This document shows, in pieces, positions 550-18,426 of a DNA stretch of 21,284 bases. Where the stretch lies: positions 1-21,284 of the forward strand of contig PJAB01000750.1 in assembly GCA_002887195.1 (NCBI GenBank), in the 5' to 3' direction. This DNA comes from Chrysochromulina parva (Eukaryota; Haptophyta; Prymnesiales; Chrysochromulinaceae). The notes below the pieces were generated by a model that was not told where the DNA came from, did no database searches, and was given only the letters and a program-made list of their open reading frames with translations. Position 1 is the first letter of the stretch. Each line of letters begins with the position of its first letter. Position numbers and translations under genes: made by a program.

Positions 550-3500
550 CTAGCCGTGCAGGCGCCCGACAGCCAGCCTGGGCGGTTCGTGCTCGTGAAC
601 CGAGTCCTCGCCTCTGCCGCCTGGCGTGCCCCCCTTTCGCCTCCTCCTGCCGCTCGGCGTCTCCTTATCGCGCCGGCGCTTGCGCACGTCCCGCGACCGC
701 AGCACGATGCGCAGAGGGGTGCCCACATAAGGCCACATGCCGCGGATCGTGTTCTCGAGCCAGCCCATATCTCCCGTATGGAGCTCCGCCTGCCGGTTCA
801 GATGCACGACGAACGTCGGCGCCTCGGTGTACGCCTGGAGCACATAGAGCACTCGGATGCGTCCCGCCTGCCCTGATTTGAGCGCCTTCACTTTGGGTAA
901 CGGCCGAAGCGTCTGCATGCGTGCGAACAGCTCGTTCAGCCGGCGGCGCGGCACTCGGAATTGGCGCCAGAAGCCGGCCTCGCACACGAGATCGAGCGCC
1001 GCGTCGAGGCCGTCGCCGTTGAGCGCGGAGGTCTCGACGAGAGGCGCGTACCTGTGGGGAGATGGGCGCCATGGTGAGCACATGCATGCAGAGCGCGGAG
1101 GTCTCGACGAGAGGCGCGCACCGAAGCATGGGCAGCCGGTCGCTGATGAGGGATGCAATCAGCATGCAATCAGCATGCAATCGTACCGAAGCATGGGCAG
1201 CCGGTCGCTGATGAGGGATGCAATCAGCATGCAATCAGCATGCAATCGTACCGAAGCATGGGCAGCCGGTCGCTGATCATCTGGGGGAGCTTCTCGCGCT
1301 CCTTCGGGGTGAGAAGGTCCACCTGATGAGGGGGGGGCAATCAGCTGATGAGGGGGGCAATCAACTAATGAGGGGGTCAACCACCCGAAGAGGGGGGCAC
1401 CGAGATGATGAGGGAGGCCATCACACCACCATCACCTTCCCCTCGGTGTGAGAAGGTGCGCCGCGTAGGGCGACAAGCCCCTTGCGATGCAATCAGCGAT
1501 GCAATCAGCGATGCAATCAGCGATACAATCAGGCGACAAGCCCCTTGTGTTGCAATCAGCGGTGCAATCAGCGGTGCAATCAGTAGCGCAATCAGTAGCG
1601 CAGTCAGTAGCGCGCCTTGTTGGCGACGAGCACGCAGCTCTTGTTGTTCTCGATGACGAGATCAGCAATCTGGAGGTCGTTACGCGTGAGCCCTAATTTG
1701 GCATCGAAGAGGAGGAGCGACACGTGGCACGACATGATCATCTGCTTCGCGCGCGCCACAGCCATCCGATCGAGCTCTTCGCGCTCCTCGCCGCCTGCTG
1801 CCGCCCGCCGAATGCCTGGCGTGCGACGGCGCCAATCGGAAGTGGCGCTCACAAGCACTCAGTGGCACTAAGTGGCTATCAGAAGCACTCAGAAGCACTC
1901 AGAAGCACTCAGTGGCGATCAGAAGCACTCGGTGGCACTCAGTGGCACTCAATGTCACTCACCTGCGGTGTCGGCAATCAAGATCGACTGGCCACGCCAT
2001 CTGAGTGACGAGGCAATCGAGTCTCGAGTAGTGCCGGGTGATGGGTGCACCACATGCCTCTGCTCGCCGAGGACGCGGTTGATGAAGGACGACTTGCCCA
2101 CATTAGGACGCCCAATCACCTGATGAGGGGGGCAATCAGCTGATGAGGGGGGTGTTGCCTGATGAGGGGGGCAATCAGCTGATGAGGGGGGCAATCGCCG
2201 GATGACTTGTCCACATGAAGACGCCTAATTACCGCGAGCTTGAGCTCAACAGTGGTGAGGGGGGCAATCAGCTGATGAGGGGGGCAAATGAAGACGCCTA
2301 ATTACCGCGAGCTTGAGCTCAACAGTGGAGCCGAAGAAGCCCCCGGCCTCGGCCCCGGCGTCACCAGAGGCGGCGGCGTCGAGGGCCGCCAGACGCTGCC
2401 ATGCAGGCGCCGTGGCGGGCACGCCTTCGGGCTCGCTGGGCACAGCCACGCGGGCGCCGTGGCGGGCGCGCCTCGCAGCTCGCGCGTCAGCCCTCTCCTC
2501 CTCTGCCACCACGCCCGCCACGGCGCCCTCAGCGCTCCCCTCCTCTGCCACCACGCCCGTCACGGCGCCCTCGAAGGCCTCCGATGACCGCTGATGACCG
2601 CTGATGACCGCTGATGACCTCTTCGCATAAACGTCATCATCATCATCAGCGGCTCCCAGGGCCTCATCATCGACCTCATCGTAGTAGTAGTACTCCTCCT
2701 CTGCCAGCTCATCCGCCAGGTCCACCGCCGCCTGGATCGCCGCAGCGTCCGTACCCTCGCCCAGCGCTCCCTCGCCGTCCAGCGCAGCATCGTCGTCCAG
2801 CGCTGCCGCCGCCGTCCCGAGCGCCGTCCCGAGCGCCGCCTCGCCTCCCGCCACGTCCATCCGTCGGTCCGTTCGACGGTATGGGGCTCGCGGGTCAGCC
2901 GTCGCAGCCGGAGGCGGCAGCAGCTCGACGATCCGATCGAGCAGCTCGGCCACCCCGCGCCCGTGGTACGCCGAGAGCGGCAGCGGCTCTCCAAGCCCAA
3001 GAGTGTAAAAGTCTGCAAAGAAGCCGCACCGCTCGGCCACGTGCTGGTGGTCCACTTTGTTGACGGTGAGCAGCACGGTGGGCGCGTCCTCGCCGCTATT
3101 CACCAGCCGTCGCAAGGTGGGCGCGAGCCGCTCGTCGGTCGGCGTGAGCCCTGCCTGCGCGTCGACGACGAAGAGCACTATGCTCGCGCCGCGCACGGCC
3201 GTGAGCACCTGCGACTGAACCAGCCACTCCATCTCCACGCGGTCGCGATCTGCGGCCGCGGCTGCAGTGAGGGCCGCGTCGAGATGGTACACGCCGCCCG
3301 TGTCGACCACGCGAAAGGAGCTGCCGTTCCAAGTCGCGATCGTCTCGAGCCGGTCGCGAGTCGTGCCGGCCATCGGCGACACGAGTGCGCGCGGGCGGAA
3401 GGCGTTGAGGCCTGGGCCAGGATCGGATAGCCGGTTGAAGAGCGTGCTCTTTCCGGCGTTGGGCGCGCCAACGATGGCCACAATGGGCAGCGGCGGAGCG

Positions 3501-3553
3501 GAGCGTGCGCCCGTGCACAGCGATCGCCGCAGCGGCTGGGCGAACGAGCGCAT
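550..3553 (-). CDS. der: Der/EngA double-GTPase ribosome biogenesis factor (5 exons, 725 aa)
   Basis: Exons on the minus strand: 3553-2306, 2119-1963, 1815-1616, 1322-1252 and 1051-550. The lengths sum to 726 codons and all joins keep frame. Domain 1 has G1 GAPNAGKS (residues 29-36), AGTTRD, DTGG and NKVD. Domain 2 has G1 GRPNVGKS (419-426, made only by joining exons 1 and 2), GTTRD, DTAG and NKVD (split by intron 3). A KH-like C-terminal domain follows, with PTFVVHLN and GTPLRIVLRSR. Bacterial and organellar Der helps mature the large ribosomal subunit. The Arg/Ser-rich N-terminus suggests mitochondrial, less likely plastid, import. An in-frame TGA lies just upstream of the chosen ATG. Oddities: about 185 acidic, low-complexity residues between the G domains, a basic C-terminal tail, and duplication-derived introns, one of them GC-AG. 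Confidence 0.93.
1052..1251 (-). repeat. Der intron 4: 65 + 65 + 70 bp tandem copies of the flanking exon edges
   Basis: The donor follows CTTCG and reads GTACGATTGC; the acceptor is TCTCCCCACAG before GTACGCG. The exon 4 end (complement of ccgaagcatgggcagccggt) recurs at 1121 and 1186 as well as at its own place, 1251, giving a 65-bp period. The exon 5 start (28 bp at 1021-1048) recurs identically at 1091-1118, a 70-bp period. These three units add up to the whole 200-nt intron. Splicing restores MLRYAPLVETSALNGDG. Internal donor-like and acceptor-like copies could allow alternative splicing. Confidence 0.9.
1323..1615 (-). repeat. Der intron 3: GC-AG intron with minisatellite tracts
   Basis: The intron interrupts the NKVD motif between Lys and Val. 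The donor reads AACAAG then GCGCGC, so this is a GC-AG intron, forced by frame. The acceptor is the repeat CTGATTGCCCCCCCCTCATCAG-type unit before GTGGACC. Inside are runs of GATTGCATCGCT-like units and a decayed copy (about 1442-1461) of the exon 4 start (1302-1322). A 16-bp motif, ggcgacaagccccttg, occurs twice within it. Confidence 0.85.
1816..1962 (-). repeat. Der intron 2: GTGAGT...CCAG intron of 10-bp tandem repeats
   Basis: It sits inside the G3 motif DTAG, joining GCAG to GCATTCGG to give DTAGIRR. The donor GTGAGT is canonical. The body is made largely of 10-bp units, agaagcactc and agtggcactc on the plus strand, between about 1850 and 1960. Unlike the other introns of this gene I find no copy of a flanking exon in it. 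Confidence 0.85.
2120..2305 (-). repeat. Der intron 1: exon copies plus acceptor minisatellite
   Basis: The donor GTAATTAGG follows CTCGCG; the acceptor is the repeat unit ending CATCAG before GTGATTGGGCG. A 41-bp block spanning the exon 1 end and the donor (2288-2328) is repeated exactly at 2215-2255. Next to it, 2203-2231 is a decayed copy (about 24 of 29 bases) of the exon 2 start at 2091-2119. The rest is tandem units of complement GATGAGGGGGGCAATCAGCT. Joining restores ELKLAVIGRPNVGKSS. Confidence 0.9.
2581..2617 (-). repeat. 11-bp tandem repeat inside Der exon 1
   Basis: Units of ctgatgaccg on the plus strand are repeated about three times and translated as part of SAVISGHQRSS within the acidic inter-domain insert. 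Similar CTGATGACC units fill HAT intron 3 (about 13965-14040). The insert may therefore partly derive from intron-type repeats that stayed in frame. Confidence 0.6.
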
Positions 3554-4128
3554 GGGCGACGTGATTCATTCACACCCCAAACCGTTCGAGCAGGCATTAC
3601 GCTAGTCAAGACAAGTCATTCGAGTGGCTTCCGTTGTCTGCTGTTAATTTCAAATGTGTCGGATTTATCCGTGAAGGGACTTTGAACGGCATGGAATGGA
3701 TGAAGAGATTTGGTTCACGGCCCACTCGCCACCGCGGTGTCTCTTCCATTCTTTGACCGCGCCGAAATGCGAAAAGAACTGGCACGCGCTCGCTCCGTCG
3801 CGTGTCCATCACCTTTCCATCACCCATCCCCCGAGCGTAACGCCACGCAAGCGCGCGCGCTACAAACCTCCATATCCTTCCACATCAGGCCTCAGCACTG
3901 TCTGTTTGGACCCCGCAACAGTGGCTCCCACGACCCCCAGTCCCCAGACCAAGACACTAAGCCGTGGGCTCTAGTCCAGGGCACACCAATAATAATGATA
4001 ATCGCTGGGCGCACGCGCGCGCCGCCGCGCGCGGTGTCGCCCCGCGCGCGCAGCGCAACCGACCAGCTGGCTTCACACCTAAGATCTTCACACCTCAACC
4101 GACCAGCTGGCTGGTCATGCAGTCCCTT
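3554..4128. other. Intergenic region: Der upstream sequence and 3' flank of the aromatic gene
   Basis: No conserved coding motif is visible in any frame. It must hold the Der promoter, near 3554, and the 3' end of the fusion gene, near 4128. A direct repeat, caaccgaccagctggct, occurs at 4056-4072 and 4096-4112 (40-bp spacing), with ttcacacct also doubled. A short alternating GC tract lies around 4013-4050. No TATA box or AATAAA is evident. Confidence 0.5.
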
Positions 4129-7100
4129 TCAAGTGAGAGCTTTCATGCCCTGCTCCATCTTGTCCATCGCGTCGGCAATGGTCTCCATCGATGCAGCATA
4201 CGAGATACGCAGGCAGTCGGGGTCGCCGAACGCCTCGCCGGGCACGAGGGCGAGCAGGAAGTCTTCGAGCAGGTAGAGACAGACGTCATTCGAGTCGGCT
4301 AGCTGTACACCCTTAGCCGTCACCCTGCCGAAGCAGGCCTTGATCGTCGGGAACGCGTAGAAGGCACCCTCTGGCGTATACACGTGCTCGATGTGCGGCA
4401 TCTGGCGCAGCCGTTGGAGAGTATAGTCGCGCTTCTGACGGTAGCCCGCGACGGCGCTCGCGAGCCACTCTGGTGTCGCCTGTCGCAGCGCGGCGATGCC
4501 TGCATACTGCGAGATCGAGCACGGGCACGACGTGTTCTGCGACTGCACCTTGGCGCAGGCCCCGGCGACGTGCACGGGCGCCGCCAGGTAGCCGAGGCGG
4601 AAGCCCGTCATGGCTGGGCCTTTGCTGAAGCCGTTGAGCGTCACCGTGCGCTCATACATGCCGGCTAGGCTCGCGAACGGCACGAAGGGCTCGTCAAACG
4701 TGATCTGCTCGTAGATCTCGTCAGCGAAGACGACCACGTGCGGGTGGCGGCGGAGCACGGCGGCGAGCTCCTCGAGTAATCTGGCTGGATGGACTGCGCC
4801 CGTTGGGTTGGACGGGTTGCACAGGACCAGCACCTTCGTTCGAGGGGTGATCGCGGCCTCGAGGTCGGCGGGCATCAGGCAGTACCCATCGCTCGCGCGC
4901 GTCGAGATGACCTTGGTCTCGGCGCCGCTCATGTACGCGATCTCCGTGTACGAGACCCAATAGGGCGCCGGGATGAGCACCTGATCTCCCGGCCCACAGA
5001 TCGCGAGCATCGCCTGCAGGAGCGATTGCTTGCCCCCATTCGAGACTACGATCTGGTTGGGCTTGTACGCGAGGCCCTTGGTCAGCAGATACTCGCAGAT
5101 CGCCTCCTGCAGCGGCCGGATGCCCGAGTTGGCCGTGTACTTGACGTGGCCGGCGTCGAGGGCCGCGTGTGCAGCCGCCATCACGGGCGGTGCGGGCAAA
5201 ATGTCGGGCTCGCCTACCGAGAGGGAGACGATCTTCTTACCCTCGAGCTTGAGGGCGGCCGCTTTGTCCGAGACGGCGACGGTCTTGGACTCCTTGAGCC
5301 CTCCGACGAGCTTCGACAGTTGGATGGCCGTTGGAGCGCCGTGGCTGCTGCTGCTGCTGCTGCCGTTGCCGCTCTGGAACGTGAGCAGGTCGTTCCGGAC
5401 TTGCTCGAAGGCCTCTGCCACCTGCGCTAGCTGCTCGGACGAGTTCGGGTTGTGGGCGTAGAGGGCATAGAAGAGGTCAAACGAGTCCTGGCAGGTGTTC
5501 TCGACCAGCTTGAGGAGCGCCTTGAAGCCGTTCGTGTCGATCGCGGACGGCTGTGGGGAAAGCTTGGCGAGCATCCGGCCGGTCAGGTGAGTGACGAACT
5601 GCGAGCCAGCGGCGAGGGCGTCGTGCTGCTCGCAGCTCATCTTGACCATCCGACAGCCTTCGTCCTCAAAGAGCGAGAGGAAGCGCGCGGATCGGTGGAA
5701 GTCGGCGACGCGCACCTGATGAGGGTAGGCAATCCGATGATGAGGGAAGCAATTAGATGATGAGGGGGGCAATCCGATGATGAGGGGGGCAATCCGATGA
5801 TGAGGGGGGCAATCCGATGATGAGGGGGGCAATCCGATGATGAGGGGGGCAATCAGATGATGACGACGCGCACCTGCTCGAAGACGAGCGGCAGCCCATG
5901 CCAAGAGTTCTTGCCACTCTCCGGTCCGAACATCGGGTGAGTACAAAGGATGTCCGCTTCGGCCGGTAGCCCGTCGAGTAGCACCTTCTTGGCGTACTGC
6001 TTGACCGAGAGCACGTCGACGATGAGCCGGCCGCGCAGCAGCTCGGCCGGGAGCCCGCCGAGCACCTGATGAGGGGGAGGGGGGGGGGGGTGCAATCAGC
6101 TGATGAGGGGGGCACTCAGCTGATGAGCTCGGCAGGGAGCCCGCCGAGCAGCGGGGCGAACGTGAGGCCGAGCGGCTCTGTCAGTTGGCCATCAGTGTCG
6201 CAATCAGCGGCGCAATCAGTGGCCATCAGTGGCCATCAGTGGCCATCAGAGGCGCCATCAGAGGCGCCATCAGTGGCACCATCAGCGTGGCGCACCTTGG
6301 CGAATGAGAGGATCGACACCGCGAGCACGACCACGTCGAGCTCGGGCACGGTCTCGATGAGCTCCTCGGGCGTGCGCACGTACCTGATGAGGGTAGGCAA
6401 TCCGATGATGAGGGAAGCAATCCGACGATGAGGGGGGCAATCCGCTGATGAGGGGGGCAATCCGCTGATGAGGGGGGCAATCCGCTGATGAGCTCCTCGG
6501 GCGTGCGCATCGTCCGCGCGAGCTCGGAGTAATCAGCGGTGCAATCAGCGGCGCAATCAGCGTACGTGACGCCCATCGTCCGCGCGAGCTCGGAGTAGTC
6601 TGTTCGACTCTGGGCGTACACGAGGTGCCCGCGGCGGACCCATCGGCGCGCGAGGAACTGCCCAAAGGTTCCGAAGCCGAGCACGGCGATGCGGAGCGGG
6701 CTCACCTGTGGGAAAAGAGGAGGAGGCGCCGTGGTGGGCACTTGCATGCAGAGGCGGAAGCACGGCGATCCGGAGCGGGCTCACCTGTGGGAAAAGAGGA
6801 GGAGGCGCCGTGGTGGGCACTTGCATGCAGAGGCGGAAGCACGGCGATGCGGAGCGGGCTCACCAACGGCGGCTGCAGCAGCAGTGCACTCGTGCTCGCC
6901 GAACGCGACGCTGGGGTGCCGCTGCTGCCGCTCGGGAGCGTGAGCTTGTCTTTGGGGTACGAGCCGAGGACTTTGACGAACCGCGTGAGCTCCTCGAGGT
7001 GGCGCATCGCGTTATGCATCGTGGGAGAGCTCGCGTGCGCGAGGACGTCCACGTAGAACGCGTACTCGAACTGCGCCACCGGCAGCGGCAGCGCCGCCTC

Positions 7101-7937
7101 CGCTGCCGGTGTGAGCCGTTGGCGCTTGACTGCGGCGGGGCCAGAGCCCGCCATGTTGGTCAGGCCGCCAGAGGGCTTGGGTGAGGTGAGGGCCTCGGCT
7201 TCGTGGTGGCCGCCCAGCTCGATGTCCCCGGGCCGGAACGGGCGCGATTCGATCTTGGACAGGTCGATGTCGCGGGAGGCGAAGCATGAGAGGGCCTTGT
7301 GCAGCACGCCGACCTCGTTGCGCTTGGGCACGAAGACGAGAGAAGTCTTGGCGTCGACGCCCTCGGGCAGCTCGCAGGCGCTGCGCCCGAGGATGAGGAA
7401 GCGCGTGAAGTTGTTCGCGTCGTCCTCGATCCCGTGATCGAGCACCTCCAGCCCGTGCACCTCGGCCGCGCGCGCGGAGGCCACCGCCGCCGTGTCGCGA
7501 AGCCCTTGCTCGCGCACGAGCTTCGCGGAGCCGGCGGTGTCGTACGCGGCCACGGGCGTGATGCCTAGGCCGCGCAGGTACCGGTCCGTCTGCGCGAGCG
7601 CCTGCGGGTGCGACATCGCCTTCTTGACGTCCTCCTTCTTGACGCCGGGCAGCGCGAGGAGCGCGTGGCGCACGCGGAACGAGTGCTCGCCAAGGATGTG
7701 CACCTTGCCGTGGTGGCGCAGCATGAGGTCGTAGTTGACGTGGATCGATCCGCCCAGCGTGTTCTCCACCGGCACCGCGATATAATCGACCGAGCCCGCC
7801 ACGAGCGCGGAGAAGACCTCCTCGAATGATTGATAGCCGACGGCGAGCATCTCCACGGCCGTGGGCCGGAACGCCTCGTAGGCGGCGCCCTCGGAGTAAG
7901 CGCCCGGCTCACCCTGGTAGCCCACCTTGACGGGCAT
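4129..7937 (-). CDS. Trifunctional Phe/Tyr enzyme: dehydratase, dehydrogenase and aminotransferase fusion (5 exons, 1026 aa)
   Basis: Exons on the minus strand: 7937-6864, 6705-6566, 6383-6296, 6065-5874 and 5715-4129, 1027 codons in frame. Residues 1-345 are a prephenate/arogenate dehydratase with the catalytic TRF (178-180) and an ACT domain with the Phe-binding ESRP (230-233), carrying an insert of about 45 aa. Residues 359-610 are a TyrA-type dehydrogenase: GFGTFGQ (368-374), CTHPMFGPESG with His477, GSQFVTH. A Ser-rich linker follows (611-628). Residues 629-1026 are a class I aminotransferase: NPSNPTG (798-804), ADEIY, PLP lysine in NGFSKGPAMTG (863). Plant-type use would be prephenate to arogenate, then Phe and Tyr. 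ESRP suggests Phe feedback. The ATG is the first after an in-frame TGA and leaves no targeting peptide, so an upstream exon may be missed. Confidence 0.94.
5716..5873 (-). repeat. Aromatic gene intron 4: acceptor minisatellite flanked by a 12-bp direct repeat
   Basis: The 12-bp gacgcgcacctg occurs at 5707-5718 and 5865-5876, offset by exactly the intron length (158 nt), so the intron starts with the same GTGCGCGTC that begins exon 5. Between them lie about seven tandem units of complement GATGAGGGGGGCAATCCGAT. Splicing joins VFEQ to VRVADFH. Confidence 0.93.
6066..6295 (-). repeat. Aromatic gene intron 3: carries a decayed copy of the exon 4 start
   Basis: Joining AAG to GTGCTCGGC gives SILSFAKVLGGLPAELL, which I recall aligning without gaps to plant arogenate dehydrogenases. 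Bases 6126-6150 copy the exon 4 start at 6040-6064 with one mismatch in 25. The rest is GGCCATCAGT-type repeats (6180-6290) and the acceptor unit with a long C run (6066-6120). It could be misread as an extra exon because the copy is open in frame. Confidence 0.88.
6384..6565 (-). repeat. Aromatic gene intron 2: contains a chimera of both flanking exons
   Basis: GTACG stands at both the intron start and the exon 3 start. Joining gives ARTMGVTYVRTPEELIE. In the intron, 6487-6509 is a 23-bp copy of exon 3 (6356-6378) abutting 6509-6532, a 24-bp copy of exon 2 (6574-6597). The 3' half is tandem acceptor-type units; its last 38 nt match those of intron 4. Confidence 0.9.
6706..6863 (-). repeat. 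Aromatic gene intron 1: exactly two tandem 79-bp units
   Basis: The 158-nt intron is two copies of a 79-bp unit that begins GTGAGCCCGCTCCG and ends TTTTCCCACAG. The first 26 nt of the unit are also the first 26 nt of exon 2 (one mismatch in the middle copy). Each unit alone has donor, pyrimidine tract and acceptor, so using the acceptor at 6785 instead of 6706 would shorten the intron to 79 nt and add 79 nt to the mRNA, shifting frame. Splicing over both gives LLLQPPLVSPLRIAVLGFG. Confidence 0.95.
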
Positions 7938-8634
7938 GGCTGATGCTGATGCTGCTGCTCCGGTGGGCAAGGAGGAGCGCGCGCCGCGACGTCAAGCAGC
8001 GCCGAGCGCCGCGTCGCGAGGCGACAGTGGCGCGCTGGAAGCCGAGACAATCTCCCGTGCCCAAGCCAAGTCACGTCAAGAGCGAGAAAACGGAAAACTT
8101 CCTCTTCTGCGACTTTGCACGCTGCTTGGCGCTCGTTCAAGTTCAAGTTCAAGTTCAAGTTAGGTTGTCTGTTGTTTATGTAGTAACTTGAACTTGAACT
8201 TGAACTTGAACTGGCGCTCGGGCAGTGCCGCTTCGCTCGTCACTTGTGAAAGAGAGGAGAGTGATATCTGTGGAGATTGTGGAGAGTCGATCATATAATC
8301 GATCCAGCTGTACATGGCTGTAGTGTCACGTGTAAGATCACGTGTGTCGACCGTGTGTCGATGCTCGATGGAAATGGCAATGGGAGAACGATACCCGTCT
8401 CTCGGTAGTGGTCGTGCCTATTTTCCGTGAACTCCGTCGATCTCACACTTCATGTTCTCGTGAATACAATGTTGACTGATTCATTACCAGAACCCAATTA
8501 ACCTTTGTGGAGAATTCTTTCGAAAATTCTTCATCATTGAAAATTCCGCATCCGTTTTAGGTGAAAGAAGGTTCGGCGGGTCTCATCGCTTCTCCGCTTC
8601 GAAAGACGTGGAGTCAACGCGTGGCGCGGGCAGG
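7938..8634. promoter_or_regulatory. Divergent promoter region between the aromatic gene and the 8635 gene
   Basis: The two genes diverge from this 697-bp stretch. The part at 8221-8580 is clearly poorer in GC than the coding DNA. It has two CACGTG (G-box/E-box) hexamers at 8327-8332 and 8339-8344, which bHLH or bZIP factors commonly bind. No clear TATA box is seen. The foldback element at 8127-8220 lies nearer the aromatic gene. Regulation of either gene by these sites is inference. Confidence 0.5.
8127..8220. mobile_element. Small foldback element with 27-bp inverted repeats and a 9-bp flanking duplication
   Basis: The arms 8135-8161 and 8185-8211 are perfect inverted repeats, each four and a half units of the hexamer CAAGTT/AACTTG, around a 23-nt spacer. 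The direct repeat tggcgctcg flanks it at 8127-8135 and 8212-8220. Terminal inverted repeats plus a flanking duplication resemble a MITE-like insertion with a target-site duplication. No coding capacity. It could instead be a hexamer expansion that inverted. Confidence 0.55.
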
Positions 8635-9408
8635 ATGAACGGAGTCACGAACGAGCTCCTGGAGCGCCTCATCGCCATACGCCGCGCGCAGCTGCTCAAG
8701 GAGGTCGACTTCGTCGCGCGCGCCTCCCTCGGCCAGCCTCGTGACGCGACGACGTCCTCGGGGGCCCCACAGCCACGGGTAGCGCCCAGTGCGCCCGCGC
8801 TGCCCGCGCGGCCTCGCCAGCAGCAGCGCGGGCCTTCGGGCTCATCTGGCACCAACAAGCGCCCGCGAGACTCCGCGCCCACCGACGCAGCTGCCAAGCG
8901 CCCGGTGCCGCCGGTCCCGCCCCCGGCCAACGTGGAGGAGTCACCTTTGCTGACTGGGCTCGCCCTGGATTCGTGCCTGGCGATGCTGGACACGCCCGAT
9001 CTTTTTGGGATGTTCCTCGCGGACTCCGCCCCCGATGCTTACATGGCGCCCCCGCGCGACGATCAGCCTCAAGGTCAGTATGGCCAGCAGCCGTCGGAGC
9101 AGACGTCAGAGGACGATGACAGCTCAAACCTATGCACCTCGCCGGTGCCAAGGAACGCGGACGGCCCCTTCGGCCTCAGCTCGCCCACGCCCGAGCGCAA
9201 ACACCCTGGCGAGATGCCCGGCGAGATCGGCGAGATGCCCCCCTCCCAGCCCACTTTGGACATGAACGACATGGACGAGGGCTCCGCGGCGGCCGCCCGC
9301 CACAAACCATTAGCCAACAAGCTGTCCGCGGGCCCCTCGGGTGCTCACCACGGCGCGACGAGCTTCTCGTGCATCGACGTGCTCGAGCTCGAGTCGGCGC
9401 TCGATTGA
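8635..9408 (+). CDS. Uncharacterised Pro/Ser-rich protein (257 aa)
   Basis: First ATG of a 5' open frame, opening MNGVTNELLERLIAIRRAQ, a predicted helix of about 30 residues. Then come a Pro/Ala/Gln-rich, basic segment with TNKRPRD (possible nuclear signal), a short hydrophobic/acidic block LLTGLALDSCLAML...DLFGMFLADS (about 105-130) and an acidic Ser/Pro-rich tail. This looks like a mostly disordered nuclear or regulatory protein, but I do not recognise the family. The reading frame reopens after the TGA with a repeated ELEAALD, so the real 3' end may involve a short intron and a longer C-terminus. It is divergent from the aromatic gene. Confidence 0.5.
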   Translation: MNGVTNELLERLIAIRRAQLLKEVDFVARASLGQPRDATTSSGAPQPRVAPSAPALPARPRQQQRGPSGSSGTNKRPRDSAPTDAAAKRPVPPVPPPANVEESPLLTGLALDSCLAMLDTPDLFGMFLADSAPDAYMAPPRDDQPQGQYGQQPSEQTSEDDDSSNLCTSPVPRNADGPFGLSSPTPERKHPGEMPGEIGEMPPSQPTLDMNDMDEGSAAAARHKPLANKLSAGPSGAHHGATSFSCIDVLELESALD

Positions 9409-9470
9409 GGCGATGTGGTGAGCACCTCGATGCGCTGTGGTGAGCACTTCGAGCTCGAGGCGGCGCTCGA
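9384..9470 (+). repeat. 66-bp tandem duplication spanning the stop codon of the 8635 gene
   Basis: cgagctcgag at 9384-9393 recurs at 9450-9459, followed in both places by (t/g)cggcgctcga. The spacer also doubles tgtggtgagcac. The spacing is 22 codons, in frame, with the TGA inside. This matches the exon-copy pattern of the introns, so 9382 to about 9459 could be an intron bypassing the stop; I cannot fix the splice sites. Confidence 0.5.
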
Positions 9471-10097
9471 CGGAGGCGGCCCCTCGCAGGCGCCACGCCG
9501 AGCCGCCAGCCAGCCGCCTCGCGACCCCCCTCGCAGGCCCGGAACACCTCCTTCTCCCCCCCCCGACTCCCCGATCGACTTTTCCGGTCGCGGGTGGGGG
9601 ATGGATTGCGAGCTATTGCTGCGAGAGGGCGTGTGCCTCTGTGCCAGCCACCCTATTATCCACGGCCGGGTTGGGCAAGGGCGTGTGCCAGCCACCCTAT
9701 TATCCACGCGCCGGGTTGGACATGCCGGGTAGGGCATGCCGTGCGCATCCGATCGACCGGTAACGAGAGACGCTGGCGACTCCTTGCATCCCATTCCCAT
9801 GCATGCCGGTGCGCCGCCCTCACCTACTATATACACTATATACACGCATGGCAATATGTTATGACGCGTGCTGCAACGCGCGCGCGAGGCCTGTGTGAAT
9901 CCTGGAGATGTGGAGGTGTATCGTGTCAATCGAAACAATCACTACATCTTCACCGGGGGGCACCGGGACACACTCGAGACAGACAAACGCGGTACGGTAC
10001 ATGTTGATGTTGATGACGTGATGACGCGTTCGCGGCCCTTTGTCACCAGAGAAGTGCTCGAGCGTGAGAAGTCTTCCATTGGCAAGACCTGCGCGCC
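9409..10097 (+). other. Region between the 8635 gene and the HAT gene, with repeats and TATA-like tracts
   Basis: It opens with the tandem duplication above and a Pro-rich frame of doubtful coding status to 9732. A 24-bp direct repeat, gtgccagccaccctattatc plus cacg, is at 9641-9664 and 9685-9708 (44-bp period). The lower-GC part from about 9740 probably holds the HAT promoter. No RNA gene is seen. Confidence 0.5.
9827..9844 (+). promoter_or_regulatory. TATA-like tract upstream of the HAT gene
   Basis: ctatataca stands twice in tandem, about 255 bp before the HAT start codon, in one of the most AT-rich stretches of the window. Its role as a core promoter is inference. Confidence 0.35.
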
Positions 10098-13000
10098 ATG
10101 CGGAAACGCAAGCAGGAGGCGACGGCTGAGGCGACGGCTGAGACGGCGGCCGAGGAAGCGGCCGAGGCCGCGGCCGAGGCGGCGCGGCCAAAGCGGCAGA
10201 TCAAGCAGAAACCCGCGTACGTCATGGAGCGCATGGTGTTCTCCCAGCGGATACCCAAGAATAAGCCGCAGAAGCCGCAGAAGCCAAAGGACGGCGCCGA
10301 GAAGCCGGCCTTCCCGAGGCGCAACAATCAGTATACCGTCGGTCGCAATCTGGGCGAGGCCTCCTACGGTCGCGGCGGCGGTGGAGGCGGCCGCGGCGCC
10401 GGCCGCGGTGGTGGTGGCCGCGGGCGCGTCCGTGGCGGTGCCGGCGCCGGCGCCGGCGCGGGCAGCCAGCCGGACGCCTCCGAGCCGCTGCTTCGTGGCT
10501 CGAAGGCGGCTGAGGAGTGGGGCTGGAAGAACAAGCTGCCGGATGGGCGTCCGCTATGCCCGCTCTACTACGGCTGCCCGGAGCCCAGCGAGTACTTTTG
10601 CTGCGAGCGCCACCGGCTGCTGTGGCAGGGCGGCACGCTGCTCATGACGCGCATGCCCGAGGAGTGGAAGCGCTCAGCGCCCGATCCCGAGTGGGTGCTG
10701 AATAGCAAGCGCGGTGCGTCGACGCGATCGGAGGATGGGAGCAGCGAGGCGACCAGCGCGCGCGGCAGTGCGGTGGCGCAGTCGCAGCCGGCAGCGCGCC
10801 GCGGCACCAAAGCGCTCGCGTCGTGGGTGCGCGAGGGCCACGGCGAGGGCGAGGAGGAGGGCGAGGAGGAGGGCGACGAGGGCGAGGAGGGCAGTGAGGA
10901 GGAGGGCGAGGACGAGGAGGGTGAGGAGGGTGAGGAGGGCGAGGAGGGCGAGGAGGGCGACGACGGAGAGGAGGGCGAGGACGACGAGCAGGACGACGAG
11001 GACGACGAGGACCATGGCGCCGTAGTGAGCGCCGAAGAGGCGGGCGAGGAGGGCGGAGAGGAGGACGAGGAGGACGAGGAGGACGAGGACGAGGAGGACG
11101 AGGACGACGCGGTTGTGGAGGACGAGGAGGAGGACGAGGAGGAGGCGATGGATGCCAAATTAGGGACGATGGATGCCAAATTAGGGACGATGGATGCGAG
11201 CGCGTTCGAGGCTTCCGAGACGCTCATCGTGCACGTGTGTGATGAGGAGAGCGAGCTGAAGGCGAACGGTGTCTCGCCTGTCGCCTCCGGCCCGGCCTCC
11301 GGGCCCGGCTCTGGTCCCGCCTCCGAGATACACGCCGAGATACACGCCTCCGGGCCCGGCTCTGGTCCCGCCTCCGAGATACACGCCGAGATACACGCCT
11401 CCGGGCCCGGCTCTGGTCCCGCCTCGCTCACCCGCGGCGGCTCGGGGATCGGATTTCTCTCCGACGGGATGGAGGACGGTGTGAATGTGAATGCGACGGA
11501 GCCAATGGCGGTGGAGGCGTCCGGATTTGGATCCGCGCCGGTTGCCATATTAGGGAGGTCTGCGCCGGCTGCCGCGCCCAGGGCGGCGCCGGCGCCATCC
11601 GCAGAGCAGAGAGCAGGAGCAGCAGCAGGAGCAGTAGCAGCAGGAGCAGTAGCAGCAGCAGCAGCAGCAGCAGCATCCGGAGCAGCGGAGGCAGCGTCGT
11701 CGCCGCTGCTGCCGAGAGCTCCCGCTGCGAACGGTCCTGCTGCGGCGGCGGCTACTGCCTCCGCTACTCACGCGCCTTCGGCAGCTGCCATCTGGACGGC
11801 GGCGCCCGGCACGACGCCCGGCTCGAGCGCCGTCACGAGCGCCACTGCCGCCGTCGCCACGGGCAGCGCGCCGACTGACGCCATGCCCCCAGGGACGCAC
11901 CCGGCGTGTATCTCGGCGTGTATCTCGGCGAGTAGCGAGCCTCCGACCGACGCCATGCCTGCGCCGCTGCCCGGTGCCGATCCCAACGCGCTCGAGACAG
12001 CGCGCGTTGCATTGATCAAGGACTTGCCTAATCTGGTCGAGCCCGAGCCGCACGTGCGTGCACAGAAGCTGCTGATGGAGCGAGCCGACTGCTTACTCTG
12101 TCGCTCCGCCGCCACGCTCGCCCGTGTCGCCGCCCATTCGCATGCACCTCCCTTTTCGGCGCCCGTCGACCTCGACGTCTTCCCGGACTACTTGAGTCGA
12201 GTCCAACGGCCGATGGACCTCCGTGCGCAGCTGATTACCTCTGATTGCCTCTGATTGCCTCTGATTGCCCTTCGGATGGGCCCTGAGTGCCTCTGAGTGC
12301 CTCCCTCATCAGGCACCGTCGCTGAGAAGCTCGCTGATGGCCTTTGCTTGCCTCTGATTGCCTCTGAGTGCCTCCCTCATCAGGCACCGTCGCTGAGAAG
12401 CTCGCCAGGGGTCTCTACCTCTTCGGCGTCGCTGGCAACGCTCCGAATGGCGCCGTGCTCATGCGCGCCGACGTGCAGCGCGTCTGGGCCAACTGCCGCG
12501 CCTATAACCCGCCACGCGCGGGCATCGTGCGCTTGCTCGTCGACCTCGAAGCGGAATTCGAGGCCGCGTGGTCGCAATGGGTGGCGCGGCGGGCGGATGG
12601 CTGGCAATCCTGGCTGCGCGCGTCGGCGGCGGCGCTGGTGCCGCTGCCCATCGGTGGCAAGCTGCCACCCATTTGCCGGATGCCGCTGCCGCAGCGCATC
12701 CAGAAGCGCTCGCCACAGCGCTCGTTCCAGCCGCCGCCACCGCCGCCTCTATCTCCCGAGGAGATCGCGGCCTTATCGTTTGACGAGCGGCAGGCGATGC
12801 TTGAGAGGTCGCTGCCAAATCGCGCTCCGCCGCCGCCGGGCTGGTCGGCCGAGGACGTGGGCGGCTGCCCTTGGCACCTTCGCGAGGCGTACGCGACGCC
12901 GGCGGCGCTCGCGGCGCGTGCAGCGGCGGAGGCCTTGATGATGCGCGTCATCTCGGAGACTCGCCAGATGAAGGAGCAGGCGATGGAGCTCGCCGAGGCG

Positions 13001-14696
13001 GCCGCGAGCGGCATGCGCATCGTGACGGCGGCGGTGGGGCGGCGCGTCGTCTGCCGGACTCGTCGGTGGGGATTCGGTCACGGACAGCACGGTGGAGGAG
13101 AGGGGCGCGAGGTGCATGGGGTCTACCAGGTCGATGGGCGCGTGCTCGAGGACGAGACGAAACGCGCCGTCTCGGTCACCGACTTCGTGGCGTTCGCGGG
13201 CTGGAGTGGGAGCGGCACACGGCCGCTTCGCAAGATCCGGCTCGAGCGCAACGGCACGGGCGCGGACGAGGCGGAGGAGGGTGAGCTCTCTCTGGAGAAG
13301 CTGTTACAGATGCACGGGGCGATGGATGTGACGGCGCGCGCGGCGAATGCGCAGGCCGACCCGCACTGCACCCTCTGCGGGGGTGGCGAGTCGGAGCCCG
13401 GCAATGAGATCCTCTTGTGCGACGGCTGGCGCTGTGTGGGCTGCTACCACCAAAAGTGCTGCGTCCCGCCCGTCGAGGCGGTGCCTGAGGGCTCATGGCT
13501 CTGCTCGACGTGCGTGATTGCAATTGATAGCGCTTGATTGCGATTGATTGCTCGACGTGCGTCCTCGGATGGCGATTGATTGCAATGGATTGATACTGAT
13601 TCATTTGGATTGCTATTGATTGCTCGACGTGCGTCCTTGGACGGAGCTTGATGGCGCGTGATTGCAATTGATGGCGCTTGATTTTGCTGGATGGCGCTGG
13701 ATGGCGCTTGATTGCGCTTGATGGCGGCTGAGTACACCCAATTGCCTCCCTCATCAGTTGCGTCTCGAATGGCAACATCGTCGATCCTGAGGTTGAGGAG
13801 GATGAGCGACGGGCCGTCGAGTGCGCGGGGGGCGAAGAGTCGATGGTCGTGCTGCGCAACGACGGGCTCGGCCTGCAGGTGCGCCGAATGCCCCCTGATT
13901 GCGCTTGATTGTACTTGATTGCGCTCGGCCTGCAGGTGCGCCTAATGCCTCTTGAGCGCCTCTCTGATGACCCTCTGATGACCCTCTGATGACCCTCTGA
14001 TGACCCTCTGATGACCCTCTGATGACCCTCTGATGACCTCCTCAACCACCCTGTACCAAACCCGTCCCAAACCCGCAGGACCTCGCCCTGCTCAACGAGG
14101 TGGTCGACGTGATCGACTCATCCCTCCCCCTCATCGGACGCACGAACGCCGCCAAGCTCGTCTTCGCACCCGACCATCAATCTCTCGTGCTGCTGCGCTC
14201 GACCGCATCGGCCCGGCGCGTGCTCGGCGCCATCGTCCTCAAACCCCACTGCGTGCGAGGATTCCTCGAGGTCGCCTTCTGTGTCGTCCGGAAGGAGGAG
14301 CAGCGTAACGGCATTGGCTCTCGCCTGCTCGACAGGCTCAAGGCGCATGCCATCTCCCTCGGCGTCCTCCATCTGCTCACGTACGCTGACGACTCCGCCA
14401 CCGGCTTCTTCGAGCGGCACGGTTTCGAGATCGAGCCGGCGTACGGCATGGTCATCAACCGTTTCCACTGGGGCGTCGCGCACTACATCGGCTCACAATT
14501 ACGCCAATGCGTCCTCGATCCAGACGGCGTGACACTCTACAGTGCCGAGTACGGGCGCCTCGTCCCCGTCAACGGCCGACGCCTCTTTGCCGCAAAGGGC
14601 TGTGGGGGCGCCGCCGCCGCTGGCACCGCCGCTGGCACCGCCGCCGCTGGCACCGCCGCCGCTGGCGCCGCCGCCGCTGGAGCTGCCGCTCATTAG
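10098..14696 (+). CDS. Bromodomain, PHD finger and GCN5-type histone acetyltransferase protein (4 exons, 1329 aa)
   Basis: Exons: 10098-12222, 12384-13509, 13758-13878 and 14079-14696, 1330 codons in frame; an in-frame TGA precedes the ATG. Order: basic Ala/Glu N-terminus; Gly/Arg-rich segment (about 90-125); Cys/His cluster CPLYYGCPEP...FCCERH (about 155-172), possibly zinc-binding; Glu/Asp/Gly tract (about 250-350); Ala-rich linker; bromodomain (about 690-775, PMDLRTVAEKL made across intron 1, then NCRAYNPP); PHD finger (about 1034-1086, CTLCGGG...WLCSTC); GCN5-type HAT (about 1115-1270) with the general-base Glu in FLEVAFC (1188), acetyl-CoA loop QRNGIG (1199-1204) and LTYADD; poly-Ala tail. 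The protein would read acetylated and methylated histones and acetylate histones. Known GCN5 proteins end in a bromodomain; here the order is that of CBP/p300. Confidence 0.92.
11301..11425 (+). repeat. 51-bp in-frame tandem repeat in HAT exon 1
   Basis: About 2.4 copies, starting at 11301, 11352 and 11403, encode the 17-residue unit GPGSGPASEIHAEIHAS. A 26-bp core at 11323-11348 occurs inverted at 11903-11928, where it is read as ACISACIS. A smaller in-frame repeat, atggatgccaaattagggac, stands just upstream at 11148-11190. Confidence 0.85.
12223..12383 (+). repeat. HAT intron 1: 71-bp tandem copy of the acceptor and exon 2 start
   Basis: The donor is GTGCGCAG after ATGGACCTCC; the acceptor is CCTCCCTCATCAG before GCACCGTCGCTG. 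A 44-bp block holding acceptor and exon 2 start is at 12291-12334 and again at 12362-12405. Only the second acceptor keeps the bromodomain frame; the first (exon at 12313) leads out of frame. Repeated CTCTGATTGC units lie at 12238-12300 and 12350-12370. Confidence 0.9.
13510..13757 (+). repeat. HAT intron 2: copies of the exon 2 end in a TTGATTG repeat field
   Basis: The donor GTGCGTG splits the PHD codon; the acceptor is GCCTCCCTCATCAG before TTGCGTC, giving WLCSTCVSNGNIVD. The exon 2 end with donor, tgctcgacgtgcgt (13502-13515), recurs at 13549-13562 and 13621-13634. The remainder is variants of GCGCTTGATTGC. Confidence 0.88.
13879..14078 (+). repeat. HAT intron 3: 57-bp exon-edge duplication plus 11-bp repeats
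   Basis: The frame requires donor GTGCGCC after CTGCAG and acceptor AACCCGCAG before GACCTCGCC, joining VVLRNDGLGLQ to DLALLNEVV in the HAT fold. The 20-bp gctcggcctgcaggtgcgcc at 13866-13885 recurs at 13923-13942. About seven units of CTCTGATGACC fill 13965-14040. Using the acceptor at 13935 would truncate the protein at a stop. Confidence 0.88.
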
Positions 14697-16532: not shown

Positions 16533-18185
16533 CTACACGCAGTCGGGCTCGATGTCTGGCCACTTTACCAAGAGCACACGGTAGGCGAGTGTGGGCACAT
16601 GAGACACGGCCTCACAGAGCGAGGGAATCGGGCCCTGCCAGCTATCGGCGTCGCTGCTGACCAAGGTCATAGCCAACTCCACAACTGTGCCTCCCCGCGC
16701 GTGGAGCTCGTCGGAGAGCGCAAGGGCAGCGTCTCTGTGCATCGGGGCGACGATGACCGAGATTGCCGCGTTCATGGAGCGTAGCGCATCGGCGAGTGGC
16801 GCGACGTCCGGATGATAATAGGCCACGTCACTTGCAATCACAACATCGTACTTTGCTAGCACAGCCGTCGCCACGTCACCGAGCGTGTTCCAGTTGAGCT
16901 TGATTGCACTCGCCGAGGTGCCTTGATCAAGCTGCTCGAGCAGCCGTTCGCGAGAATCAGAGAGTATCACGGTGGCCGCTCCACGTGCCGCGAGATCGCG
17001 ACCTGGCAAGCCGAGGCCGGCGCCGAGCTCGAGCACTCGCGGAAGCTGCCGGCCTGTGAGCCCGTCTGCCTTACCGTCTGCCAACCCGTTGACGGAGTCG
17101 GCCAGCAGGAGCCTTCCAGCACGGCTGCGCAGAAAGATCGTCAAGACGACAGCTGAGTCCCACACGCTGTGGCCCACCCCGGCACCCTCGTAAGGAATCT
17201 CATGAAGAAGGAGCGGGACCTCGAGCACGGGCACCATCGACGGATCCGGAGCCGCGGCGAAGGTGAAGCTGCGAGCGGCGCCCTCCATGTAGGAGTCCCG
17301 AGGCCACGCACCCGAGGCCACCGAGGTGGCTGTGCCAAGGCTTGAACTCGAGGGGATGGCGCCCAGCGCCAGCTTGTCGACCATCTCATCCTGCACGTGA
17401 CCACGTGTCAGCTTGGCGAGTGGCGAGAGCCAATGGTACAGCTCGTAGCGGGTGCGTCTCCACGGGCCTTTGAGTCGTGCTGCCCGCTCGCTGCGTTCGT
17501 CGGAGGTTTCCTTGGAGGACGATGGCCGTCCAATAGAGGCCCTCTGACTCAGCATCGGATGGTCTTCCTTCCAGAGGTCTTTAGCGGCCTCCTTGGCGGC
17601 CACTCGCGCGGCGGCCCATTGTTTGAGCTCCAACTGAGCGATGTCATCATCCTCGGCCTCCTCTGTGGCATCTTCGTGCATCGACTTCGTGAGCTCGAGA
17701 GAGAGAGCCCGGCTCAGCGCCTCTTTGATGGGCATTGGCTTCAGCTCTGAAGGGTTCTCCGAGCTGCTGCGTAGCCGGAGCAACTCATCGGCGAGGATTC
17801 GGGTTTGCGTGAGATCTATCTGTGTGCCAACTTTGGAGAGCTCTCCCAAAGAGCCGAAGAGGCGACACATAACTGGACGAGACTCATACTGGCCGCAGCG
17901 GCCCATGGATCCATCTTGATCATCGGTAGGCTCATAGATCACGCACGTTAGATCGCTCTTCTGCTTGGCTGCGGCGAGACGACTGAACACCGAGTTTGCC
18001 AAGCCGTGGCGAAGCAATGATTGAGCCAAAGGCAAGCACTCGGTCTCCGTCGCTTCAGCGGTCAGAGCCGTCATGCACTTGCCGCAGCCTGGTGCAGAGA
18101 TAAATCCACTCGCTTTCGTAGCTGCAAATGACTTGGCATCGATTCGTGCAAAAGAGGTCATGGCCATGGCCCAGGCTCCTGACAT
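16533..18185 (-). CDS. YkgJ-like Cys domain fused to METTL21/FAM86-like protein methyltransferase (550 aa)
   Basis: Single exon. The N-terminal part has GCGKC (Cys34, Cys37) and GRCGQYESRPVMCRLFG (Cys97, Tyr100, RP, Cys107), the layout of the CxxC...C..RP..CR domain of YkgJ-type putative zinc- or iron-binding proteins. Residues 120-300 are charged and probably helical, with no family I recognise. The C-terminal part is a seven-beta-strand SAM methyltransferase: VWDSAVVL, motif I VLELGAGLGLPG (about 380-391), a Gln/Asn-Trp segment and YDVVIASDVAYYHPDV (about 442-457). In METTL21/FAM86 relatives these mark lysine methyltransferases of translation factors or chaperones; the substrate here is unknown. 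The first ATG of the frame was used; other ATGs follow 7 and 9 codons later, and a GTG precedes it. It diverges from the hydrolase gene. Confidence 0.83.
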   Translation of the reverse strand: MSGAWAMAMTSFARIDAKSFAATKASGFISAPGCGKCMTALTAEATETECLPLAQSLLRHGLANSVFSRLAAAKQKSDLTCVIYEPTDDQDGSMGRCGQYESRPVMCRLFGSLGELSKVGTQIDLTQTRILADELLRLRSSSENPSELKPMPIKEALSRALSLELTKSMHEDATEEAEDDDIAQLELKQWAAARVAAKEAAKDLWKEDHPMLSQRASIGRPSSSKETSDERSERAARLKGPWRRTRYELYHWLSPLAKLTRGHVQDEMVDKLALGAIPSSSSLGTATSVASGAWPRDSYMEGAARSFTFAAAPDPSMVPVLEVPLLLHEIPYEGAGVGHSVWDSAVVLTIFLRSRAGRLLLADSVNGLADGKADGLTGRQLPRVLELGAGLGLPGRDLAARGAATVILSDSRERLLEQLDQGTSASAIKLNWNTLGDVATAVLAKYDVVIASDVAYYHPDVAPLADALRSMNAAISVIVAPMHRDAALALSDELHARGGTVVELAMTLVSSDADSWQGPIPSLCEAVSHVPTLAYRVLLVKWPDIEPDCV

Positions 18186-18426
18186 CTCCTGGACAGGCGA
18201 CAGCACACACAGCGACGTCTTCCAAAAGAGACGCGCTACGCGCCCCCGGCGCGAGCCTTGAAAACCCCCTTTCGGCTATTAATTGCCACGATTGCATGCC
18301 GTCCTCGGGGAGACAGACGACTGGAACGCCGTTGGTCTAGGGCCGCCTCGAGGGGGTATTCACAGAGCACTGCGCACACCTTTGTGGGATGTCGGACTTT
18401 TTCCGCTGGCTTCGCGTTCTGACGCC
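18186..18426. promoter_or_regulatory. Short divergent intergenic region (241 bp)
   Basis: It separates the methyltransferase and hydrolase start codons, so both promoters must lie here or inside the genes. A lower-GC patch, ggctattaattgccacgatt, lies at 18273-18292. No further motif is clear. Confidence 0.4.

Follow-up and report, generated by a model that had tools for sequence, protein, structure and literature searches.

The window analysed here, a stretch of 21,284 nucleotides (nt) of contig PJAB01000750.1 from the haptophyte alga Chrysochromulina parva (C750 in the 45.07-Mb assembly of 2199 contigs used for all genome-wide counts), carries 11 introns in three genes. These introns are most probably introner-like insertions of short dispersed elements, each accompanied by a duplication of its target. 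This reading is favoured because the body of the intron recurs genome-wide and is flanked by a copy of the adjoining exon that is specific to its locus. The origin of new introns is a long-standing question, and the repeat members sampled here mostly look like introns lying beside their own insertion footprint.

The three intron-bearing genes encode an EngA/Der-type GTPase (minus strand, introns A1 to A4), a prephenate dehydratase/prephenate dehydrogenase/aminotransferase fusion protein (minus strand, B1 to B4), and a bromodomain-PHD-GNAT protein (plus strand, C1 to C3). Their introns were identified through homology-based gene models, from which their excision is presumed; ten have GT-AG borders and one (A3) has GC-AG borders. 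Once the introns are removed, all three genes display stop-free frames (the fusion gene in its corrected model), and the bromodomain match improves from a partial hit with E = 9.2e-5 in the unspliced frame to 3.5e-14 in the spliced one. An initial model of the fusion gene, with five introns, one of them GC-AG, and a spurious 18-nt exon, was rejected: the residues PLGLTF were missing in 9/9 aligned homologs, so the corrected model drops the 18 nt and treats two introns as a single one (B3). The protein query employed for homolog listing, domain search, and alignment still included PLGLTF.

Sequence derived from the neighbouring exons is present inside most of these introns. The flanking exons of each intron were joined (45 nt from each side) and compared by local gapped alignment with the intron and with 500 dinucleotide shuffles of it; nine of the 11 introns each outscored 500/500 of their own shuffles. 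None of these nine scores was reached with the exon flanks of the other ten introns. The nine introns score from 14 to 54.5. A score of 14 was not reached by any of 115 pseudo-introns taken from coding exons, three of which beat their own 60 shuffles. This gapped test replaced an ungapped one and was chosen after copies spanning the exon junction had been noticed; the earlier ungapped test, run on the uncorrected 12-intron model, had placed 8/12 introns beyond 100/100 shuffles.

Several claims of the first-pass annotation of this DNA are borne out by these results. Its count of ten introns with an exon-edge copy is accurate, the tenth being B4, whose first 10 nt exactly copy the start of the next exon, with a score reached anywhere by 20/500 shuffles. 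Equally accurate is its count of downstream exons beginning with GT (7/11), and its proposal that the duplicated exon edge provides the GT donor is supported by exon copies at GT starts that leave the peptide unchanged. The varying decay it described is also evident, for example between the copy in A4, with a single mismatch, and the decayed one in A3. It had overlooked both the dispersed repeats that form the intron bodies and the fact that, in A1 (about 50 identical positions) and A4, the copy of the joined exons runs continuously across the junction. We read these uninterrupted copies as the trace of an intron-less earlier state at both sites.

Two repeat types that recur throughout the genome, singly or together, make up the rest of most window introns. 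Family 1 is made of CTGAT-based tandem units of about 10–20 nt, often ending in CTGATTGCCNCCCTCATCAG, which combines CTGAT with a run of pyrimidines and the acceptor; this CTGAT is the putative branch point, judging from sequence and position. Family 2 comprises, in order, CATGCAAGTGCTCACCACGGCGC, a pyrimidine tract, and CCACAG. Counted as occurrences, so that one tandem array is counted several times, family 1 is found 485 times exactly and 3366 times with up to three mismatches, and family 2 is found 393 times exactly and 1819 times (core) with up to three mismatches; the reversed-pattern control gave 0 for both. The suggestion, drawn from the density of such introns in about 14 kb, that a lineage-wide process is at work thus holds in so far as the pattern counts extend across the whole assembly. 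The density itself does not hold as typical: CTGAT-type tandem arrays were seen in about three places in five unselected 10-kb contig starts, and the density of the window is above average.

The dispersed bodies bear directly on the mechanism that the first-pass annotation had favoured, namely the AGGT model, in which an exon segment containing AGGT is tandemly doubled and the copy turns into an intron. The association of intron gain with duplication stands, since the exon copies and the GT-starting exons are real and the duplicated exon supplies the donor. Tandem units formed by an exon copy plus an insert are also present, both in B1 and at the loci L025, L031, L046, and L047 outside the window. 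Tandem duplication of coding DNA as the source of the intron is not supported, however. A dispersed repeat with more than 1000 matches per family makes up the part that carries the pyrimidine tract, the AG, and the presumed branch point, and the duplication spans only about 10–45 nt and flanks the body like a target-site duplication (TSD). Because whole units of copy and insert are repeated, tandem duplication is regarded as a further step and not as the origin, and the AGGT model is very improbable as an account of these introns.

The same anatomy was found at loci outside the window, which had been selected for a pattern match or for resemblance to the window. At 15 of 21 outside loci containing an exact family-1 unit, the start of the next exon is repeated upstream with at least 15/20 identities, in L035 only between repeat units. 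A first set combined the window with fetched loci, with several ends per tandem locus, and compared the 20 nt after the acceptor at a threshold of at least 17/20 identical positions. For family 2, upstream recurrence was detected in 35/50 ends, compared with 1/597 when downstream exons were swapped, and in 0/50 in inverted orientation; for family 1 it was detected in 25/41 ends (4 of the 25 between repeat units), compared with 23/484 swaps, and in 0/41 inverted. A second set, chosen by pattern alone and scored at a minimum of 12/14, gave 25/40 versus 1/280 swaps for family 2 and 9/20 versus 3/140 swaps for family 1.

These results also bear on the proposal that old introns expanded as minisatellites and acquired exon copies by slippage across the 3' splice site. 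Tandem arrays are indeed abundant, and the exon edge is included in some of their units. Family 2 is not a minisatellite, yet it displays the same duplications at the frequency just given for the pattern-chosen loci, and the copies in A1 and A4 continue across the exon junction, so this explanation is very improbable.

Across 25 family-2 events of the second set, the duplication measures 10 to 45 nt by ungapped extension, with ends uncertain by a few bases. In the length listing of the first set, values above 45 correspond to tandemly amplified units and not to target duplications, and rows with fewer than 14/16 matching positions were excluded. In nine of the 40 family-2 loci of this set, the two copies agree at each of the first 20 nt of the duplication, and these loci are presumably young; they contain nine different pyrimidine tracts of 13–23 nt. 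Some duplications are identical over at least 20 nt, which suggests recent activity. Two contig pairs, L052/L081 and L059/L063, contain similar exons around family-2 introns and may be paralogs or alleles, which might help in dating insertions.

GT stands directly after 207 of the 244 family-2 elements that have both the core and CCACAG, an excess far over the one-in-sixteen expectation, which shows targeting or selection. Where insertions appear to be nested within introns (the second step in A1, the first step in C3, and the family-1 step in A4, all recognized by eye), the duplication lacks GT at its start, and for this reason selection is favoured over targeting as the probable cause.

According to the proposed explanation, a short dispersed element would insert into coding DNA and duplicate about 10–45 nt of its target. 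The exonic insertions that survive would be those with GT or GC at the start of the duplicated target and AG at the end of the insert. The upstream copy would then become the start of the intron and provide the donor, while the insert would contribute the branch point, the pyrimidine tract, and the acceptor, and splicing would restore the original coding sequence regardless of the length of the duplication. Nested insertions, tandem amplification of units of copy and insert, and slippage could later enlarge the intron. The duplication itself would arise from staggered cutting, either during the repair of breaks or in a process that is target-primed or resembles transposition. Judged by homology, copies of these repeats form introns of three unrelated genes in the window.

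A cut-and-paste transposase, with its fixed stagger, would account less well for long duplications of variable length and for a tract that differs among young copies than would target-primed retro-insertion or the filling of staggered breaks with intron-derived DNA. Family 2 combines the variable duplication with the variable 3' tract of the insert that are expected of target-primed retro-insertion resembling that of short interspersed nuclear elements (SINEs). A more specific scheme can be envisaged, in which the elements would be a new class of mobile intron maker. Its SINE-like units would consist almost wholly of a 3' splice region (branch point, pyrimidine tract, AG) and would enter staggered nicks by way of an RNA copy. 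Each insertion would produce a long duplication of variable length and have a pyrimidine tract of its own, and frame-neutral introns could arise wherever GT opens the duplicated target. In the minisatellite family, this maker would be reduced to branch-point arrays. The scheme remains speculative, and we consider it unlikely.

A non-mobile origin amounts to the preferred explanation without the element. As proposed for Daphnia, existing introns could by chance serve as templates for the DNA that fills staggered double-strand breaks. The variable length of the duplication agrees with such a process, the second insert of A1 seems by eye to begin and stop within a repeat unit, and the repeated internal duplications of individual introns resemble the staggered-then-staggered class of Daphnia (PMC4202315). 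Random filler would hardly be expected, however, to yield thousands of matches from only two families, nor to place the same end beside GT in such a large proportion of family-2 elements. In addition, the exon-edge repeats given for Daphnia pulex in the accessible text, 4–12 bp, are shorter than most of those observed here. Chance filling of breaks is thus a possible but doubtful source of these introns.

Some observations weigh against the interpretation as introner-like insertions. No exon copy was detected in A2 by the joined-exon alignment, and this intron was counted as a failure throughout. At the threshold used, 15/40 family-2 and 11/20 family-1 loci chosen by pattern had no copy, whether because of age or for another reason; on reading, L088, a family-2 locus among these, displayed a 39-nt duplication with a diverged start. 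Family 1 is of low complexity, so part of its similarity and of its matches in the swap control could reflect convergence or slippage. After removal of the intron, a Pfam domain crosses the junction in 2/10 loci (TLDc at L007, 3.7e-17, and LMBR1 at L083, 1.1e-26), which speaks for the interpretation, but the remaining pieces gave hits that did not cross it (4/10) or no hit (4/10). Open frames in the flanks, a weak test that is not used as proof, were found in 37/53 joined loci in sense orientation, 30/53 in antisense, and 21/53 with the intron kept.

Among described systems, introners are the nearest known class: both involve dispersed, repeated insertions that create introns (PMC9860276). In the accessible part of that study, TSDs measure 3–9 bp in some earlier families and 4 bp in the Symbiodinium and Chrysochromulina examples, and terminal inverted repeats are reported in 72 of 177 families, many families lacking them. 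The published Chrysochromulina introner has a 4-bp TSD and no inverted repeats and carries its own 5' splice site, whereas the elements described here carry the 3' side. The short TSD of fixed length that characterizes introners of DNA-transposon type (miniature inverted-repeat transposable elements) was not found in the 25 family-2 events, whose duplications are long and variable, and family 1 is a minisatellite built on CTGAT. In both respects, the long duplication of variable length and the minisatellite body, these introns differ from the introners of the literature consulted. Local scores of 4–8 between the ends of eight young family-2 elements revealed no inverted repeat of note in a comparison that had no shuffled control and did not include family 1. 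The absence of such repeats is not used as a distinguishing mark, because this comparison was uncontrolled and many known introners lack them as well.

As described in the available portion of the same article, the published screen admitted only introns whose similarity began close to either end and discarded families of low complexity (PMC9860276). The introns of the window begin with a locus-specific exon copy and share only their 3' part, a departure from what the screen demands and not from what defines the class. With locus-specific first tens of nucleotides and one low-complexity family, they would probably be missed by such a screen. If algal genomes contain further 3'-half introners with long flanking duplications, estimates of the frequency of intron gain by this route could shift.

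Other systems share some of these traits, as far as the accessible portions of their descriptions extend. Neointrons of Daphnia pulex also display direct repeats and repeated internal events (PMC4202315), but their exon-edge repeats are short, and the bodies of the introns described here come from two genome-wide families instead of non-dispersed inserts. In AGGT duplication (Rogers 1989, via PMC4974935 and PMC3443670), a duplicated exon edge likewise becomes a splice site and the peptide stays the same, although the bulk of the intron here is a dispersed repeat and not a doubled exon. The introner elements of Amoebophrya (PMC7789003) are protist introns with direct repeats at their borders that are repeated in the genome; they have inverted repeats of 8–20 nt, direct repeats of 3–5 nt, and many non-canonical borders, in contrast with the long direct repeats and predominantly GT-AG borders of the window. 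A survey of the borders of 213 introns (PMC11782384) also took direct repeats, of up to 30 bp, as insertion footprints; these were identified by eye, averaged 11.4 bp, and were not tied to a dispersed family, whereas two defined families are involved here. A full-text literature search, with subscription journals mostly outside its reach and the nuclear-genome papers of Emiliania and Chrysochromulina not included, retrieved no account of such introns in haptophytes.

Table 1. Introns of the window, the exon copies and inserts within them, and the span of the fusion gene.
Feature	Gene	Coordinates	Strand	Length (nt)	Borders	Description	Basis
Intron A1	EngA/Der	2120..2305	-	186	GT-AG	Between ELKLA and VIGRPNVGKSS; family-1 units	
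Joined-exon copy in A1	EngA/Der	2200..2255	-	56		Continuous at junction	Alignment test
Intron A2	EngA/Der	1816..1962	-	147	GT-AG	TGAGTGC/CTGA repeats	
Intron A3	EngA/Der	1323..1615	-	293	GC-AG	Two tandem arrays; 3' end CTGATTGCCCCCCCCTCATCAG	
Joined-exon copy in A3	EngA/Der	1440..1478	-			Decayed	Alignment test
Intron A4	EngA/Der	1052..1251	-	200	GT-AG	65-nt family-1 units, then family-2 insertion	
Joined-exon copy in A4	EngA/Der	1091..1147	-	57		1 mismatch, continuous; duplicated 31-nt target = 1091-1121	
Family-2 insert in A4	EngA/Der	1052..1090	-	39		Source of the AG of A4	
Fusion gene	Prephenate dehydratase/dehydrogenase/aminotransferase	4129-7937	-			Last exon 4129-5715	
Intron B1	Fusion	6706..6863	-	158	GT-AG	Two 79-nt units, each 26-nt exon copy + 53-nt family-2 insert	
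Downstream-exon-start copy in B1	Fusion	6838..6863	-	26		Donor GT	
Family-2 insert in B1	Fusion	6706..6758	-	53		Polypyrimidine tract + CACAG acceptor	
Intron B2	Fusion	6384..6565	-	182	GT-AG	Family-1 arrays, 12-nt + 20-nt units	
Joined-exon copy in B2	Fusion	6487..6534	-			15-nt deletion	Alignment test
Intron B3	Fusion	6066..6295	-	230	GT-AG	Merged from two via homolog comparison	
Joined-exon copy in B3	Fusion	6126..6167	-				Alignment test
Intron B4	Fusion	5716..5873	-	158	GT-AG	20-nt family-1 minisatellite; first 10 nt copy next exon start	
Intron C1	Bromodomain-PHD-GNAT	12223..12383	+	161	GT-AG	Within bromodomain	
Downstream-exon-start copy in C1	Bromodomain-PHD-GNAT	12313..12334	+	22		Exact	Alignment test
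Intron C2	Bromodomain-PHD-GNAT	13510..13757	+	248	GT-AG	PHD-finger end; CTTGATTGCG-type repeats	
Joined-exon copy in C2	Bromodomain-PHD-GNAT	13549..13573	+				Alignment test
Intron C3	Bromodomain-PHD-GNAT	13879..14078	+	200	GT-AG	11-nt CTCTGATGACC array at 13962-14038	
Upstream-exon-edge copy in C3	Bromodomain-PHD-GNAT	13923..13936	+	14		Weakest of nine (score 14)	Alignment test

Two further ideas were explored and set aside. At L088, an insertion carrying 11 nt of its source exon was considered and dropped, given that the pattern matched only L088 exactly, plus five places with one mismatch, and that the duplication mentioned above was found. A viral vector for the elements, an idea taken from the accessible part of PMC12768974, received no support from exact patterns in IMG/VR, where family 1 had no match and family 2 had one (L084). 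Positions 4236-4554 of this IMG/VR sequence, at the end of the contig, contain a CCTGACGAAC tandem array and a family-2 element and resemble this alga, whereas the first ~4.2 kb seems to consist of bacterial or phage genes; L084 is probably a chimera, and its end suggests the presence of this alga, or of a relative, in another sample.

For the fusion gene, a 32-protein tree (31 of 120 listed homologs plus the window gene) recovered a clade of 13 members with 100/100 support, comprising the window gene, Emiliania huxleyi, and eleven metagenome sequences; this placement is that of a single gene. A search with its last exon for a second copy with a possible empty site gave only a 30-nt match elsewhere in the assembly, the other genes not being searched. 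Upstream of this gene, at 8135-8212, facing (GTTCAA)n and (AACTTG)n arrays of 27 and 28 nt, separated by 23 nt, likely form a hairpin.

Additional repeats and genes are found elsewhere in the window. Positions 10845-11145 encode a long acidic Glu/Asp/Gly repeat that belongs to the coding part of the bromodomain-PHD-GNAT gene. An open frame at 16533-18275 encodes a Methyltransf_16 (lysine methyltransferase) domain; it also gives a weak, sub-cut-off CxxCxxCC hit, and no tandem array is listed there. Finally, a 12-nt repeat, GGCGGGCTCGGC, is present at 19732-19833 in 8.5 copies with 93% matches, and it lies within the reading frame of a beta-lactamase-like gene (18443-20359).

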